A stretch of 35,779 bases of DNA from Ilumatobacteraceae bacterium (GTDB lineage Bacteria > Actinomycetota > Acidimicrobiia > Acidimicrobiales > Ilumatobacteraceae): contig SHUR01000005.1 in assembly GCA_009694565.1 (NCBI GenBank), positions 1-35,779 of the forward strand, read 5' to 3'. This document shows positions 1-5,726 of the stretch, piece after piece; within the stretch, counting starts at the first letter, position 1; each line of letters starts with the position of its first letter. Both the position numbers and the translations under genes were made by a program. The notes beneath the pieces are model-generated. The model was not told the DNA's origin, did no database searches, and saw only the letters and a list, made by a program, of their open reading frames with translations.

Positions 1-1691
1 TATGGGTCAGCGTCAAGGTGTAGGAATGGGGCAATCTTTGCTACGCGTGAACGCACATCACGTTGTAACAAGATTTGAGAATCTTGAGTAATGAGATTTG
101 AACCGAAAAGGTTGAACTCACCAAAATTCACCGCAAGGGCAACCCGTCGAACGAAACTGTTGACTTTGATTCCGCCATCTCCAACAAACGATGTTTGATT
201 GCCGCCAGCACACGCTTGCTCTTTTTGAGATGTCTTTACTACGGCATATTCACCTAGGCGATCGCCAAAGTAAATCTGGGGCTTTGTAACTTTGAGATCA
301 ATATATGAAGGACGTCCGTCCTCGGTGGCCAGACTGGCAGGAGCTGCGATAACACCACACCCATGTGTGTAAATAAGGTGGCGTGATACCCAAGTACGGT
401 TCGGGATTCCTGCAGGGTTTAATTCGCGTGCAGCAACTAATACTTGTTGCACGCGGCCATCAACCGAGTAACGATCAACATCAAGATCGTTGACTGTATA
501 AAACGATGTCAGCCCTTGGTCAAGAGCAAAACGATCAAGCATCTGAGCCGGATCAAGTTGGCGCACATCACGTAGCGCTGCATCATTCGTTGTGACATCA
601 GCAGTGCTGATCGAACTAAATGTGGTGTCCTCTCGGGCCACATCTGCGATTCCCATTGCTGCCTTTGTGGCGACAATGTTGTGTTGAATAAACGGCAACT
701 CTCGTGTACTTACGTTTGGCTGCACAACAAATCGTTGAATGATTGCTGGGTACACCGTGCCGACAGCCAACGCAACAACAACCCAAAGTCCAATCGCAAG
801 AACTGGCAAACGCCAACCCTTCTGGCGGATGTTCCACAGCAACAAGGCAGTTACGGCAAGTGACACCAAGACCATTAAGTTCAGTGCCGGCAATTGTGCG
901 TTGACATCGGTGTACAACGCACCACGTACAACACCGCGAGTTGATGACGTCAGTTGATATTTTGACAACCAATAATCCGCAGCGCGCAGAAGAGTTCCAA
1001 CTGCAAGAAGCACCGACAAATGTACTTTGGCTTGCGACGTCACGCGTTGTACGCGATCTTGAGGACGAATACTGCCATTTATGAAATGAAAGGCGGTGGT
1101 AATAATTGTGACGAGAATAAGTGCGCCAAAAGCCCACGACACTACAAACTGCGCGAACGGTAAACGAAAGACATAGAAGCCAACATTTGCTTTGAATTGT
1201 GGGTCCCCAACTGCAAAAGCCTGACGATTGCGGAACATGGTCCACTCTTGCCATTGGCTCGAAGCAGGTAATCCGAGCATGAGGGCAATAAGTACGGCCA
1301 ATGCGATTCGTAATTTTCCACGACTTTTCGCAGTCAATTCACGAAGACGAATGATGGTCTGGTCTTCTGGCGTATTTGGCAGTGTCAATGGTGCAAGGCG
1401 ATCTGCAATAAGAAGGTTGACCCATAGGAAAAGAAAACAACCAATTGTAAACACACCAACAAGTTCAGCTTTACTGCGTAAAATTGCCCAGTACACATCA
1501 CTTCGACCGACACTGTTGAACCACAACACATTCACGTAGAACGACGACATCGTCTTTGCGCTGAAGACAAGAAGCAAAACGAGTCCGACTACAACTGAGA
1601 CCACAATTCGGCCACGAGAGGGCTTACCGAAATTAGGAAGTCGAAATACAGGGCCGGTGGGGCCGCCAGGAAGGTCTGATGAGTTACGCAC
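1..1691 (-). CDS. UPF0182 family membrane protein (3' end outside window)
   Basis: This reading frame stays open for 563 codons to the left edge, so the C-terminus is missing. The start is GTG at 1691, the first start codon after an in-frame stop, 11 nt beyond the stop of the preceding gene. A short polar N-terminus is followed by a membrane segment at about residues 29-45, then further hydrophobic helices and a motif reading FYVNVLWFNSVGRSDVYW. Later stretches (KAAMGIADV, ASLATEDGRPSYIDLKVTKPQIYFGD) are typical of the large soluble domain of UPF0182/COG1615 proteins. The family has several N-terminal membrane helices and an extracytoplasmic domain of unknown function; full-length members are around 900-1000 residues. 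It is probably co-transcribed with the DivIVA-like and PDZ-protease genes upstream. Family assignment is firm; function is unknown. Confidence 0.9.
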   Translation of the reverse strand, partial: MRNSSDLPGGPTGPVFRLPNFGKPSRGRIVVSVVVGLVLLLVFSAKTMSSFYVNVLWFNSVGRSDVYWAILRSKAELVGVFTIGCFLFLWVNLLIADRLAPLTLPNTPEDQTIIRLRELTAKSRGKLRIALAVLIALMLGLPASSQWQEWTMFRNRQAFAVGDPQFKANVGFYVFRLPFAQFVVSWAFGALILVTIITTAFHFINGSIRPQDRVQRVTSQAKVHLSVLLAVGTLLRAADYWLSKYQLTSSTRGVVRGALYTDVNAQLPALNLMVLVSLAVTALLLWNIRQKGWRLPVLAIGLWVVVALAVGTVYPAIIQRFVVQPNVSTRELPFIQHNIVATKAAMGIADVAREDTTFSSISTADVTTNDAALRDVRQLDPAQMLDRFALDQGLTSFYTVNDLDVDRYSVDGRVQQVLVAARELNPAGIPNRTWVSRHLIYTHGCGVIAAPASLATEDGRPSYIDLKVTKPQIYFGDRLGEYAVVKTSQKEQACAGGNQTSFVGDGGIKVNSFVRRVALAVNFGEFNLFGSNLITQDSQILLQRDVRSRVAKIAPFLHLDADP

Positions 1692-1702
1692 GCATCAGGA
1701 CG

Positions 1703-3598
1703 CTAGTCCTGAACGGGGCAAACTAGGCATCGGCAGCCCGCATGGGCAGGTGGATGACTGTGACCCGTGGGGAAATCATCACCACGAACAATTGGGCCAC
1801 CAAGCGAATTATCTTCACATTCACTGCAGCAGTTGGCATCTGGCTCGGCCATCCACGTGATGCGGCTACCTGGCTCGAGGGCAAGGTACGCGCCATGGCT
1901 ATACGACGAACAGGCAATGTCGTCCACATGAGAATTGATTCTTTCCGTCTTCCAAATGCGATACAAGTCACGTATGAGCCCAAGCAAGACATCCCGATCG
2001 CCTTCGGCTTCGCCAATTGCGATACGAGCATCTTCACGGAACCCCGCAATTAAACCTGCGGTGATGGCCGAGAGAGCGTGAGCGGCAATAGCCTTTTGGG
2101 TAACACGACGGCTTGAACCACCAGCTGCCTTCACAGACTTTGCGCCAGCACTTGCAGCCGCCATGGTGTCTTCTGCGACTGCAGTTGCGTATCGAGCGCT
2201 ATGTTCTGCTTCAGTTCCAAGCACTGCATCGATATCCAACGATGTCCGCTTTGCGCGAACATGGCCAAGAACGGTGTTTTGTTCGTCGGCAAGTACCCGC
2301 TTCAACTTTCGAGCCATTGTCACAACTACCGGTGACAGTTCTTCGTCGCGCGCTTCAAAGCGTGCAGGATCTACAACAGGAACAGTGGGCTTTGCCGCCA
2401 CCTTTTTAATTGCCTTTGGCGCTGAGGCTTTCACAGAAGGCTCAGCGTCTTTCACGATGTCTGACACGGTTGTTGCTTTTGCAGCGACATCAGCGGTGCT
2501 GCCCGCGCGTAACTTTGCAAAAATATCGTCGACAGCGACAACGCCTTTCTTCGCAACCGGAGCAACAACTGCTTCTTCGGCCAGCATTTCGAGTTCAGGC
2601 ATGTCGACAGAACGTCGTCCGCGACCGAACAGCGACACCACATTGGTATGAGAAGTTTCCGTCAGTTCTACCGAAACATCATCATCAACTGATGGAGCGA
2701 TATCGGCTGGTGTATGCACTGGGTGAAGGACATCAACAATCTGAGTTTCATAGATTACTTGAACACTGGCTTCTTCTGTGATGTCTTCTACTTCTACTTC
2801 AGACTCATGATCGAAAATAACAACATTAGTAATAACTTCTGCTGGTTCTTCTGCAACGATTACTTCTTCACGATCAAACATTTTTACCGAAGGATGTTCA
2901 GAATTAATGATGGGCACAGGACCAGTAGTAGGTGACAAATCCACAATGAATTCAGGCTCATCATGAGCATCGGTGAGTCCGCCGATGACATCTTCACTGG
3001 CGATACGCGCGCGCTCAAACGCATTCATAAGACGGTCACGGCCATGAAGAAGTTGTTCAATCTGTGAGCGAGCAGCATCACGGCGACGGGACAATTCGGA
3101 CAAGACTTTTTCACGATACTCGCGTGCCTCGTTAACCATGTCACGGCCTTGTTGCTTTGCCATTTCAATTTCAGATTCAGCGTCTGAGCCTGAGTCTTCA
3201 CGGATGCGAGCTGCTTCTAAGACTGCAGATTCACGAATACGCACTGCATCTTCTGCGGCGTCTTTTACAAGGCGAGTTGCAGACTCTTCAGCACGGTCCC
3301 GAATTTGTGTACTCGCGTCACGAGCGGCCGTAAGCACACGTGCTGCTTCTTCACCGAGCAATGTGGTGACCGTCTCCTCATCGAGTTGTCCAGGAGCCGA
3401 CAAGCCCCTTGTTTGCATGGCGCGCATCTCACTTTCAAGGAAGCGCTCACGCTCTTGAAGGCGGGCCATCTCGGCTGCCACCATTTTGAGAAAATCGCGT
3501 ACCTCAGCCTGGTCGAACCCCCGGCGACCGGTGGGAAACGCAGCCGAGCCCACCGCTGTGGGCGACGAGGGGTCGGGTCGGGAGAACGAGATAGCCAT
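1703..3598 (-). CDS. DivIVA-domain coiled-coil protein with phage Mu gpF-like C-terminal domain
   Basis: The protein has 631 residues. Residues 21-60 carry a DivIVA-type N-terminus (GRRGFDQAEVRDFL), the membrane-curvature and polar-targeting module of DivIVA/Wag31 proteins. It is followed by a long charged coiled coil (about 40-200) and an acidic, Val/Glu/Ala-rich low-complexity linker (about 205-420). The C-terminal third is different: a helical region contains KTERINSH (550-557), then a cysteine/histidine cluster with C590, C591, C594, H613, H615, H619, C622, C624 and C627, including HSHPPAHAGCRC. This order (an R/K-T-E helix, C-x2-C, then PP-x-H-x-x-CRC) resembles the C-terminal end of phage Mu gpF-like head-morphogenesis proteins. 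The DivIVA part is clear; the gpF-like call comes from motif pattern only. It sits 57 nt after the protease gene and 11 nt before the UPF0182 gene. A metal-binding role is inferred. Confidence 0.85.
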   Translation of the reverse strand: MAISFSRPDPSSPTAVGSAAFPTGRRGFDQAEVRDFLKMVAAEMARLQERERFLESEMRAMQTRGLSAPGQLDEETVTTLLGEEAARVLTAARDASTQIRDRAEESATRLVKDAAEDAVRIRESAVLEAARIREDSGSDAESEIEMAKQQGRDMVNEAREYREKVLSELSRRRDAARSQIEQLLHGRDRLMNAFERARIASEDVIGGLTDAHDEPEFIVDLSPTTGPVPIINSEHPSVKMFDREEVIVAEEPAEVITNVVIFDHESEVEVEDITEEASVQVIYETQIVDVLHPVHTPADIAPSVDDDVSVELTETSHTNVVSLFGRGRRSVDMPELEMLAEEAVVAPVAKKGVVAVDDIFAKLRAGSTADVAAKATTVSDIVKDAEPSVKASAPKAIKKVAAKPTVPVVDPARFEARDEELSPVVVTMARKLKRVLADEQNTVLGHVRAKRTSLDIDAVLGTEAEHSARYATAVAEDTMAAASAGAKSVKAAGGSSRRVTQKAIAAHALSAITAGLIAGFREDARIAIGEAEGDRDVLLGLIRDLYRIWKTERINSHVDDIACSSYSHGAYLALEPGSRITWMAEPDANCCSECEDNSLGGPIVRGDDFPTGHSHPPAHAGCRCLVCPVQD

Positions 3599-3655: not shown

Positions 3656-4807
3656 TCAGGCGGTGGTAGCGCTCAATGCATCGCCACCGTGAGTACGTAG
3701 CACCGCCAGTGCTTCGTCCAGAGTTGCAATTTGCACAATTTCGACCTGTGTGCCGACCGCCTGACGGGCCCGCTTCATCTCATCGACTGATTGGCCGGCT
3801 GGAACGAGGAAGAGGTCAGCACCCGATGCGTTGACTGCGACAGCCTTTTGTAGCAGTGCCCCAATCGCACCAACAGAGCCATCTTCGCTGATTGTTCCCG
3901 TCGCCACCACGCGAGACGTGCCCATCAGATTGCCACTCGTAAGTTCATCGAGCAACGCCAAAGTGAATGCAAGCCCGGCCGAAGGTCCGCCAATATCACT
4001 TGTTGAAATCTGGACCTCAAATGGCAACGACACAGTACGAGTATCTGCTGGAACGAAGCCAATAATCGGACGAGTGCGATTATCAGCATTTGCCATCAAC
4101 TGCACAATGCGCTTCTCGGCCTTTGCTGCGTCCGGAGTTGCTGCTTTTGCGTCATACGGAATCACCGTGAGTTCCACTGTGTCGCCGACGGCATGATTCT
4201 TCATCTGCGCCGCAAGGTCAGTCAATGTGGGTGTCGCTACTCCATCGAAGTGAGTAATGATTTCCCCGACTTCAAGATTTGTGCACGCAGCATTATTCTT
4301 GGGCGCACCGTCGCAGACCAGTTCTTTAATAACTACTCGACCCAAAACAAACTTGACGTCAAGCCCGAGTTTCTTCATTGCGACATACTCGGCAACTTGT
4401 TTTGCTCCGATCATTGCTTGAAATCCCAGCCGCCGGGAGGAGCTTGGTGTGCCCGTCCCGAAATGCTCCTCGTAGGTATCTACTTGCACATACGGGTCAA
4501 TCCACCCAAGAACGCTGTCGAGAATGGATAATTGACCGCCAAAAGCAGTGACAAACTTAATTCCGTTTGTCGTGCGGAATCGTTCCGGAACTTTTGCCCC
4601 TGCCGATGATTTAGTGAACTCAATTCGTGGGGCCACTGTCATCGCTTCGCCAGGTGCCAGTTCGAATCGTTGAATACGCACGGCTGCCATTACGACAATG
4701 CCGAATAACACAAGCCATGACAACGTAATTAGTGGCAGGGCGAATCCCAGGCCACGCGTTGATGTGGAACGACGTGGTGGGACTGGCGGTACAATCGTGT
4801 TGTTCAT
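3656..4807 (-). CDS. Membrane-anchored PDZ / Lon-like (S16) serine protease, YlbL type
   Basis: With the start at 4807 the protein has 383 residues. A polar N-terminus precedes one membrane helix (about 20-42), so the rest should face outside the membrane. A PDZ-like region (about 150-240, GEIITHFDGVATPTL...VGDTVELTV) is followed by a Lon-type proteolytic domain with a Ser-Lys dyad: Ser276 in DIGGPSAGLAF and Lys321 in GALLQKAVAV. The frame extends upstream to 4975, but that extension would run deep into the divergent gene. ATG 4807 has an AAAGGA ribosome-binding site 11 nt upstream; ATG 4843 is an alternative. In Mycobacterium a PDZ protein of this kind (Rv3194c, from memory) neighbours the UPF0182 protein Rv3193c, so a linked role at the envelope is plausible. 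Substrate unknown. Confidence 0.9.
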   Translation of the reverse strand: MNNTIVPPVPPRRSTSTRGLGFALPLITLSWLVLFGIVVMAAVRIQRFELAPGEAMTVAPRIEFTKSSAGAKVPERFRTTNGIKFVTAFGGQLSILDSVLGWIDPYVQVDTYEEHFGTGTPSSSRRLGFQAMIGAKQVAEYVAMKKLGLDVKFVLGRVVIKELVCDGAPKNNAACTNLEVGEIITHFDGVATPTLTDLAAQMKNHAVGDTVELTVIPYDAKAATPDAAKAEKRIVQLMANADNRTRPIIGFVPADTRTVSLPFEVQISTSDIGGPSAGLAFTLALLDELTSGNLMGTSRVVATGTISEDGSVGAIGALLQKAVAVNASGADLFLVPAGQSVDEMKRARQAVGTQVEIVQIATLDEALAVLRTHGGDALSATTA

Positions 4808-4871
4808 GAGTACATCAATCCTTTCATCATCCTTGTTTGCCATCACCGCTACAGGTGCTGGAGCGCGTGCT

Positions 4872-5129
4872 GTGTGGGTTGTGGCCCTGGCCTTGGTAGC
4901 GCTTGCATTTATCGACCGTATGAAGCCTGCCACGCCGCGACGTAGTGCGGTGGTGCGGGTTGACAATAAACCCACTCCTCTCTATGCCGAACCAGAGCGC
5001 GATCAAAAATGGAAGACACTCGCCCACCTTTCTGGTGGCGCAATCATCCTCGGAGCCCTTTTTGCCTGCATCCTTGGTTTCATGTTCACCATTGCATTCG
5101 AATTTGTGGGTGGGCTCCTTCGGGCCTAG
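4872..5129 (+). CDS. Small membrane protein of unknown function
   Basis: This 85-residue protein has two hydrophobic segments, one at the extreme N-terminus (VWVVALALVALAFI) and one at the C-terminus (GGAIILGALFACILGFMFTIAFEFVGG), separated by a basic, proline-containing linker. I chose GTG 4872 because GGAG lies 8 nt upstream; an in-frame ATG at 4806 also exists but would overlap the start codon of the divergent protease gene and has no clear ribosome-binding site. The stop is 6 nt before the HEAT-repeat gene, so the two are probably co-transcribed. I do not recognise a family. Confidence 0.7.
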   Translation: MWVVALALVALAFIDRMKPATPRRSAVVRVDNKPTPLYAEPERDQKWKTLAHLSGGAIILGALFACILGFMFTIAFEFVGGLLRA

Positions 5130-5135
5130 TCCGCC

Positions 5136-5726
5136 ATGTCAGATAATTTTCGATTTGATGTCATCGCAGCCGGGTTCTCTGGTGACTCGTCAGTGGCGCT
5201 CGAGGCTCTGCACCATGAAGATGGCACTGTTCGTGCTAGTGCCTTGCGCGCTCTTGCGCGCATAGGAACTTTGACTGCAGAGATTCTTGCTCCATATATT
5301 CAGGATTCCCATGTTGAGACCAGACGTACGGCTGTGGAATTGGCAGTTCCTTTCCGCTCAGTCAATGTGCATCAGTGCATCGATGACTCAGATGTTTTTG
5401 TGGCCGAAATGACTGCATGGTGTGTGGGTGAACGCATGTCCGCAAGTGACATTGAAATCGAAACTCTCATTGATCGCACTACATCACACAAGGAGGCCGT
5501 GGTTCGCGAAGCGTGTGCGGCTGCACTTGGGTCACTTGGCGACGCACGCGGACTGCCTGCAATTCTTGCGGCATGTTCCGATAAACCCGCCGTGCGTAGA
5601 CGTGCCATCTTGGCACTTGCTCCATTCGAAGGCGACGAGGTAGATGCAGCCTTACAACGCGCGCTTGAAGACAAAGACTGGCAAGTGCGCCAGAACGCCG
5701 AAGATTTACTGAACCCTCGTGGTTAG
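5136..5726 (+). CDS. HEAT-repeat protein
   Basis: This 196-residue soluble protein is built of tandem alpha-helical repeats. Repeat signatures include LEALHHEDGTVRASALRALARIG (about 23-45), EAVVREACAAALGSLGD (about 119-135), KPAVRRRAILALAPFEG (about 149-165) and KDWQVRQNAEDLL (about 179-191), each with the D/P-x-x-V-R pattern of HEAT/PBS-lyase-like repeats. Such proteins are usually interaction scaffolds; no catalytic residues are apparent. No good ribosome-binding site precedes the ATG, which fits translational coupling to the small membrane protein 6 nt upstream. Its stop overlaps the convergent tag stop by 4 nt. The partner is unknown. Confidence 0.8.
   Translation: MSDNFRFDVIAAGFSGDSSVALEALHHEDGTVRASALRALARIGTLTAEILAPYIQDSHVETRRTAVELAVPFRSVNVHQCIDDSDVFVAEMTAWCVGERMSASDIEIETLIDRTTSHKEAVVREACAAALGSLGDARGLPAILAACSDKPAVRRRAILALAPFEGDEVDAALQRALEDKDWQVRQNAEDLLNPRG

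Follow-up and report, generated by a model that had tools for sequence, protein, structure and literature searches.

The locus and its genes

The window analysed here is the whole 35,779-nucleotide stretch of DNA, and the gene under study lies on its minus strand between the genes of a YlbL-type protease and a UPF0182 membrane protein. Sequence analysis confirmed that one protein combines a DivIVA domain and its coiled coil, a disordered linker and, at the C-terminus, a domain with homology to phage MuF (hereafter the C-domain). The features of the locus, in the order of transcription, are:

3656-4975, minus strand: YlbL-type PDZ and Lon-like (S16) protease, upstream, 57 nt before the fusion gene (PF05362, PF13180)
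1703-3598, minus strand: DivIVA-MuF fusion gene, 631 aa; intact open reading frame with ATG start and 631 codons
3227-3553, minus strand: DivIVA domain, residues 16-124 (PF05103, above cut-off)
2966-3511, minus strand: coiled-coil helices, residues 30-63 and 74-211 (full-length model)
2384-2965, minus strand: disordered linker, residues 212-405, acidic and then Ala/Lys-rich (pLDDT)
2621-2644, minus strand: linker motif NVVSLFGR, residues 319-326 (conservation in 40 rows)
2501-2530, minus strand: linker motif DDIFAKLRAG, residues 357-366 (conservation in 40 rows)
1706-2368, minus strand: MuF-like domain, residues 411-631, a helical bundle with a small beta tail (profiles, model)
1715-1864, minus strand: Cys/His tail of the MuF-like domain, residues 579-628, with C591, C594, H619, C622 and C624 (PF04233 match, alignment)
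3-1691, minus strand: UPF0182 membrane protein, downstream, 11 nt after the fusion gene, running off the window (PF03699, E = 4.3e-153)

The original prediction had described a phage capsid-assembly domain tied to a DivIVA scaffold. Its core stands, in that a MuF homologue is joined to DivIVA in a chromosomal gene outside any prophage, whereas its nine-residue Cys/His set, its equating of K-T-E with the phage helix and its view of the metal cluster as essential are not supported in detail. The full-length model reached a mean pLDDT of 70.9 with a pTM of 0.42, so the relative placement of its parts is meaningless. We also noticed a gene for a HEAT-repeat protein near ylbL on the opposite strand (window positions 5136-5726, plus strand), which is present in several relatives as well.

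The DivIVA end

PF05103 matched the whole protein with 41.7 bits and, searched separately, residues 1-210 alone with 49.2 bits, against a gathering score of 28; the same cut-off was passed by six of the eight fusions scanned from outside the order, so not every distant relative's N-terminus qualifies as DivIVA. The DivIVA loop reads RRGFDQAEVRDFL at residues 25-37, and RRGFDQAEV at 25-33 fits the RGYDxxEV-type loop ahead of a coiled coil (the coiled coil here being the modelled helices), by which the available text of a DivIVA survey defines the DivIVA-like domain (PMC9858780). This loop pattern occurs in 87 of the 128 distinct fusion ORFs. The modelled helices (30-63 and 74-211) have block mean pLDDT values of 82-96, but 61-74 near residues 61-80 and in the last block. 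Both the DivIVA-type N-terminus with its coiled coil and the long acidic linker that had been read from the letters were thus borne out, the linker having a pLDDT below 50 over most of its length, with weak helices at 359-381 in the full-length model.

Actinobacterial DivIVA/Wag31 proteins (PF05103, NF050102) share with the fusion the N-terminal RG[Y/F]DxxEV loop ahead of a long coiled coil. Unlike them, the fusion sits outside the dcw cluster, carries a linker and a folded phage-type domain, and scores 39.9 bits against the Wag31 equivalog NF050102, whose cut-off is 260. PolyDIV Ser/Thr kinase proteins likewise combine a DivIVA-like domain with an extra folded domain; in the available text of the survey, the kinase cluster is called unique in having one, and MuF is unmentioned (PMC9858780). 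Our literature search, judged by titles and the starts of abstracts, found no description of a DivIVA-MuF fusion.

Homology of the C-domain to phage MuF

The C-domain, as judged from sequence profiles, is homologous to phage MuF, though outside Pfam's MuF membership. The window protein scored 18.8-21 bits against PF04233 (MuF), under the gathering score of 29.6, and missed the TIGR01641 cut-off likewise; among 30 relatives the best E-value to PF04233 was 3.8e-5. No fusion in the 61 genomes scanned lay above the PF04233 cut-off, the sole passing frame being another gene (G051:C61). Of 30 C-domains from across the order, 29 matched the phage portal family phrog_2662 at E ≤ 1, the lowest E-value being 5.4e-14; the window C-domain matched it at E = 5.2e-8, with residues 432-629 on the last third of the portal profile, a part that we read as MuF-like. 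The earlier reading of the C-terminus as gpF-like therefore holds as profile homology to phage MuF and portal ends, but not as membership by Pfam's MuF cut-off.

Might the resemblance be convergence of a small zinc-knuckle motif? The score under the curated Pfam cut-off and the lack of a significant PDB match would fit such a view, as would the finding that in the window protein the Pfam match and the majority of PHROG matches cover just the last 50 residues. Against it, phrog_2662 covers the whole domain, hhalign aligned the C-domain with phage portal ends over 117 columns (98.4%, E = 7.9e-15), the phage side consisting of five ends (one from a named phage portal and four from viral contigs, with three near copies among them), and the fold matches are mainly phage head proteins; we consider convergence scarcely credible. 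A profile built from 63 cellular members, with no phage among them, found seven of nine phage or phage-like loci (E 4.9e-13 to 1.7e-4, nominal database 100,000), which are not a blind sample because they had been gathered by similarity to the C-domain family or its first phage match. It matched none of the reversed sequences; the two of the nine that it missed are G051:C61 and G043:C209, frames of other bacterial genomes that PF04233 matches.

The structural comparison agrees with the profiles. Residues 408-631 were modelled with a pLDDT of 92.3 and a pTM of 0.89. A BFVD search with this model brought up mainly phage head proteins: 37 viral matches lie at E ≤ 1e-3, the best of them at E = 1.2e-5, and the query-normalised TM reaches 0.71. 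Of the 50 matches listed, 24 are named, and capsid, head, portal or structural proteins account for 18 of the named ones. The PDB returned nothing at E ≤ 0.001 for the C-domain model and five weak matches by sequence (e.g., ZorA), at E 0.048 or worse. VIA-align matches, mostly helical bundles (best Z 7.8 to a designed bundle, then dynamin-like), were read as common helical packing.

Among phages, the best matches found are portal-MuF fusions (phrog_2662), including the putative portal protein of Brevundimonas phage Strzyga (ON529867). When two C-domains were searched by tblastn against 50,697 phage records, each matched 11 of them, Strzyga being the best at E = 1e-4, and a scan of viral contigs with the C-domain alignment gave a single relative (L074). 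The tails of the Strzyga portal and of the fusion protein both read FP[S/T]GHxxPxAHxxCRC; the domain is preceded by a portal protein in the phage fusions and by a DivIVA coiled coil here. With the MuF superfamily at large (PF04233/TIGR01641; Mu gpF, SPP1 gp7) the C-domain shares, besides profile and fold similarity, a helical domain ending in C-x2-C ... P-x-x-H-x-x-C-R-C. It differs in lying under the Pfam and TIGR01641 cut-offs, in having no portal or capsid gene seen beside it and in belonging to a chromosomal protein. The source genome has a second weak MuF match (G000:C26, 13.1 bits, two stops), which was set aside as noise.

The Cys/His tail

All nine Cys and His residues named from the letters (C590, C591, C594, H613, H615, H619, C622, C624, C627), with the string PPAHAGCRC, are present in the translation, but only part of the set is conserved. 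In an alignment of 49 distinct C-domains (leaving aside L058, which stops short of the tail; the contig-cut L013 below the score limit; the tail-less L054 showing a gap there), C591 is kept in 44, H619 in 47, and C622 and C624 in 48 each; C594 is kept in 34 and replaced by Ala in 14. The other four vary: C590 is kept in 22, H613 in 35, H615 in 30 and C627 in 10. The predicted nine-residue cluster is thereby reduced to four near-invariant residues and the mostly kept C594. Further tail positions are retained at similar levels (D596 in 47, N597 in 46, P610 and G612 in 48 each).

K550-T551-E552, taken in the original prediction for the equivalent of the phage R-T-E helix, is present in the window protein, but T551 varies among relatives in the alignments, and our reading of the profile alignment would place the Glu of the phage helix near D560; that equivalence was dropped. 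Nor is the metal cluster supported as the essential point, since in four genomes the frame stops after the helices: L058 (G033), L054 (G040), L195 (G226) and L200 (G189). None of the four has a Cys/His tail in its own frame within the next 700 bases; CxC strings in another frame at two of these loci were read as chance. As every tail-less form is known from a single genome, one or other may reflect an assembly error. With the tail lost and the helices kept, the helical part is the more constant part of the domain. The tail probably binds metal, as its residues suggest, and may add to stability or docking, with some lineages doing without.

Gene order around the fusion

Of 129 distinct loci, 124 have UPF0182 at most 300 nt downstream of the fusion, and in the remaining five it overlaps, is partial or lies 1 kb on; YlbL lies at most 300 nt upstream in 92 of 119 loci and at most 6 kb upstream in 18 more, and was not seen within the available upstream stretch in 9, all these counts omitting L031, L032 and 30 short loci (L155-L184), some of which (e.g., from G208, G159 and G324) stand for genomes represented nowhere else. 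In several groups, YlbL is separated from the fusion by two further genes; at L186, L189, L207, L037 and L035 these encode, as read by eye, a membrane sensor-like protein of approximately 900 aa and a FecR-like exported protein. At L071 (G046) and L289 (G213), a DivIVA-only protein, without the MuF part, stands ahead of UPF0182.

Twenty UPF0182 loci from genomes without a C-domain match held no C-domain (0/20) and a DivIVA frame once (G213). At these loci YlbL was at most 1 kb upstream in nine, farther in three and not in the stretch in eight.

As had been noted from the letters, phage genes do not surround the fusion: none was recognised by eye among the window ORFs of at least 180 aa, and the YlbL and UPF0182 neighbours were tested by family. 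The HK97-type capsid family PF05065 was found neither in the source genome (71% complete) nor in 54 of 61 genomes, the source included. We therefore rejected a prophage remnant, given the constant YlbL and UPF0182 neighbours, the lack of phage genes, the single copy in 51 genomes and the lack of PF05065.

Distribution and descent

A survey of the fusion, which had been proposed as a check, matched the protein in 59 of 61 genomes, the source genome counted, and in 32 of 32 genomes of good quality, although some matches span one half only and several copies end at contig edges. Across the phylum, the C-domain occurs in 51 of 296 genomes, always as a single copy; the carriers comprise 27 genomes of the same order, another 8 of the class and 16 from elsewhere in the phylum. 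UPF0182 occurs in 198 of the 296, including all 51 C-domain carriers (chance 1e-10, kinship ignored). The C-domain profile had no match in the other 147 of the 198, so UPF0182 does not need the C-domain in general.

These distributions bear on whether the protein is an ordinary DivIVA with a near-idle C-terminal extension, the MuF part being carried along. The DivIVA-only forms ahead of UPF0182 in G046 and G213 and the missing tail in four genomes speak for it, and together they indicate that the MuF part is not always needed. Within the class, on the other hand, 35 of 35 members with UPF0182 in the phylum sample have the C-domain, though G046, of the same order and from the other sample, lacks it and has a DivIVA-only protein in the slot; moreover, 23 C-domain positions are kept in at least 90% of 49 sequences across the order. 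On balance, we consider an idle extension rather unlikely.

Pairwise distances of the C-domain and of UPF0182 are strongly correlated (r = 0.89, 115 loci), with none of 2000 permutations as high. In a tree of 65 rows, the seven phage rows form one side of a branch (100/100), which allows a single passage between phages and cells, and kinship labels require five changes where four is the minimum possible. As the tree is unrooted and the phage branch joins a weakly resolved part among order-level rows, the direction from phage to cell is one that we infer from the wide spread of MuF in phages; passage of the domain from cell to phage is possible. Taken together, the comparisons suggest that the fusion gene is old and that its descent is apparently vertical.

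Could the domain instead serve as an anti-phage decoy, a membrane-held portal- or MuF-like domain that spoils the head assembly of infecting phages? Its homology to phage portal ends would suit this role, and defence that blocks virion assembly exists, according to the accessible part of one report (PMC10884400). But a single copy, a kept place and kinship-following descent are unlike patchy defence genes, and a PADLOC search with the C-domain found nothing, while one with the whole protein gave no more than a coiled-coil hit at E = 0.03, all of which makes a decoy very unlikely.

Several public MAG records titled Bifidobacterium breve (L076, L078, L079, L138-L140, L143 and L150) carry this locus with 42-93% identity to the window domain, and look mislabelled.

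Loss of the canonical divIVA

The sepF neighbourhood of the dcw cluster was compared at L258-L276 (the window genome being L258, G000:C67), 19 of 59 sepF loci having been inspected for the dcw divIVA. None of the 13 family members examined has this gene: in all of them, nine of the window's genus and four of other genera, ileS directly follows yggT, 280-323 nt past sepF, with no DivIVA frame between. The gene is present in six of six comparison genomes, including G035 of the same family; four of the six supplied query pieces, so only G060 and G054 are independent positives.

Each of the 13 family members without the dcw divIVA has one PF05103 match, and in the window's genus 30 of 32 genomes have one match and two have none. 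A PF05103 scan of 24 further genomes found a second DivIVA gene in five larger-genome family members (G091, G170, G148, G236 and G208) and a single one in the family members G286, G126 and G179; in G137 and G227 the sole match is not the fusion. With the dcw gene gone and one PF05103 match left, the chimera is the only recognised DivIVA in the window's lineage, with the reservations that PF05103 could miss a strongly diverged DivIVA and that several of the genomes are incomplete.

A proposed role for the fusion protein

We propose that the fusion is a cytoplasmic, membrane-associated scaffold at sites of division or growth that docks UPF0182, perhaps with YlbL, through its MuF end, a reading that we hold to be evenly balanced between right and wrong. 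The DivIVA end would self-assemble and bind the inner membrane where the cell divides or grows; the MuF end, on its flexible tether, would serve as a docking module, most likely for UPF0182 or a UPF0182-YlbL complex. Docking would keep UPF0182 and YlbL where new envelope is made, and in the window's family the fusion would, in addition, stand in for the missing DivIVA. We infer the location, the partner and the metal of the protein, and the link to division would run through distant relatives of its neighbours. Against docking, linked genes that descend together need not act together.

One such relative is Rv3193c, which we take to be a UPF0182 protein. In the available text of a Tn-seq study of an rv0954 divisome mutant, Rv3193c is among 14 underrepresented genes of membrane proteins, and the table gives it seven TM helices (PMC8093794). 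For the other neighbour, a study reports that Bacillus subtilis cells lacking YlbL and CtpA accumulate the division inhibitor YneA; of the two, only CtpA was shown to cleave it directly (PMC6051672).

Another use of a MuF end on a DivIVA scaffold would be to bind DNA and so anchor the chromosome at a pole or septum. DivIVA proteins act as polar anchors, RacA attaches the chromosome together with DivIVA in sporulating Bacillus, and SPP1 gp7 binds DNA. The anchoring role of DivIVA speaks for this reading, as do the basic residues K433, R434, R521 and R547, kept in 48-49 of 49 C-domains. muf genes also adjoin portal genes in phage packaging modules, in the accessible portion of a study that gives the role of MuF as unknown even in phage Mu (PMC5576092). 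Yet what constantly adjoins the fusion is the gene of a membrane protein rather than a nucleoid gene, and the profile matches of the window protein include no DNA-binding family; a chromosome anchor seems to us improbable.

A wider form of the docking proposal, which we regard as possible but somewhat doubtful, is that a phage portal-associated module is now core to the envelope-growth or division machinery of most of the class. In the freshwater Ilumatobacteraceae lineage, the chimera would then have replaced the canonical DivIVA as the only pole or septum scaffold, docking UPF0182 by its phage-derived domain. If true, this would clearly exemplify the recruitment of a virion-assembly domain into the cell-division or growth apparatus, in a group that lost the ordinary DivIVA gene. 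UPF0182 is still labelled uncharacterised in Pfam, and a MuF-scaffold fusion kept beside it in nearly every readable carrier offers a direct way into both functions.

Finally, two short motifs are kept in the otherwise variable linker and are possible candidates for partner-binding sites. V320 and F324 of NVVSLFGR, and F360 and L363 of DDIFAKLRAG, are invariant in 40 rows. The DDIFAKLRAG pattern occurs in 79 of 128 distinct fusion ORFs and in 0 of 17 class- or phylum-level fusions, the family set of this count comprising all loci outside the order, class and phylum lists and so taking in some order-level rows. In the comparison set of 3270 further long six-frame ORFs from these loci, mostly not genes, 16 contain the pattern.
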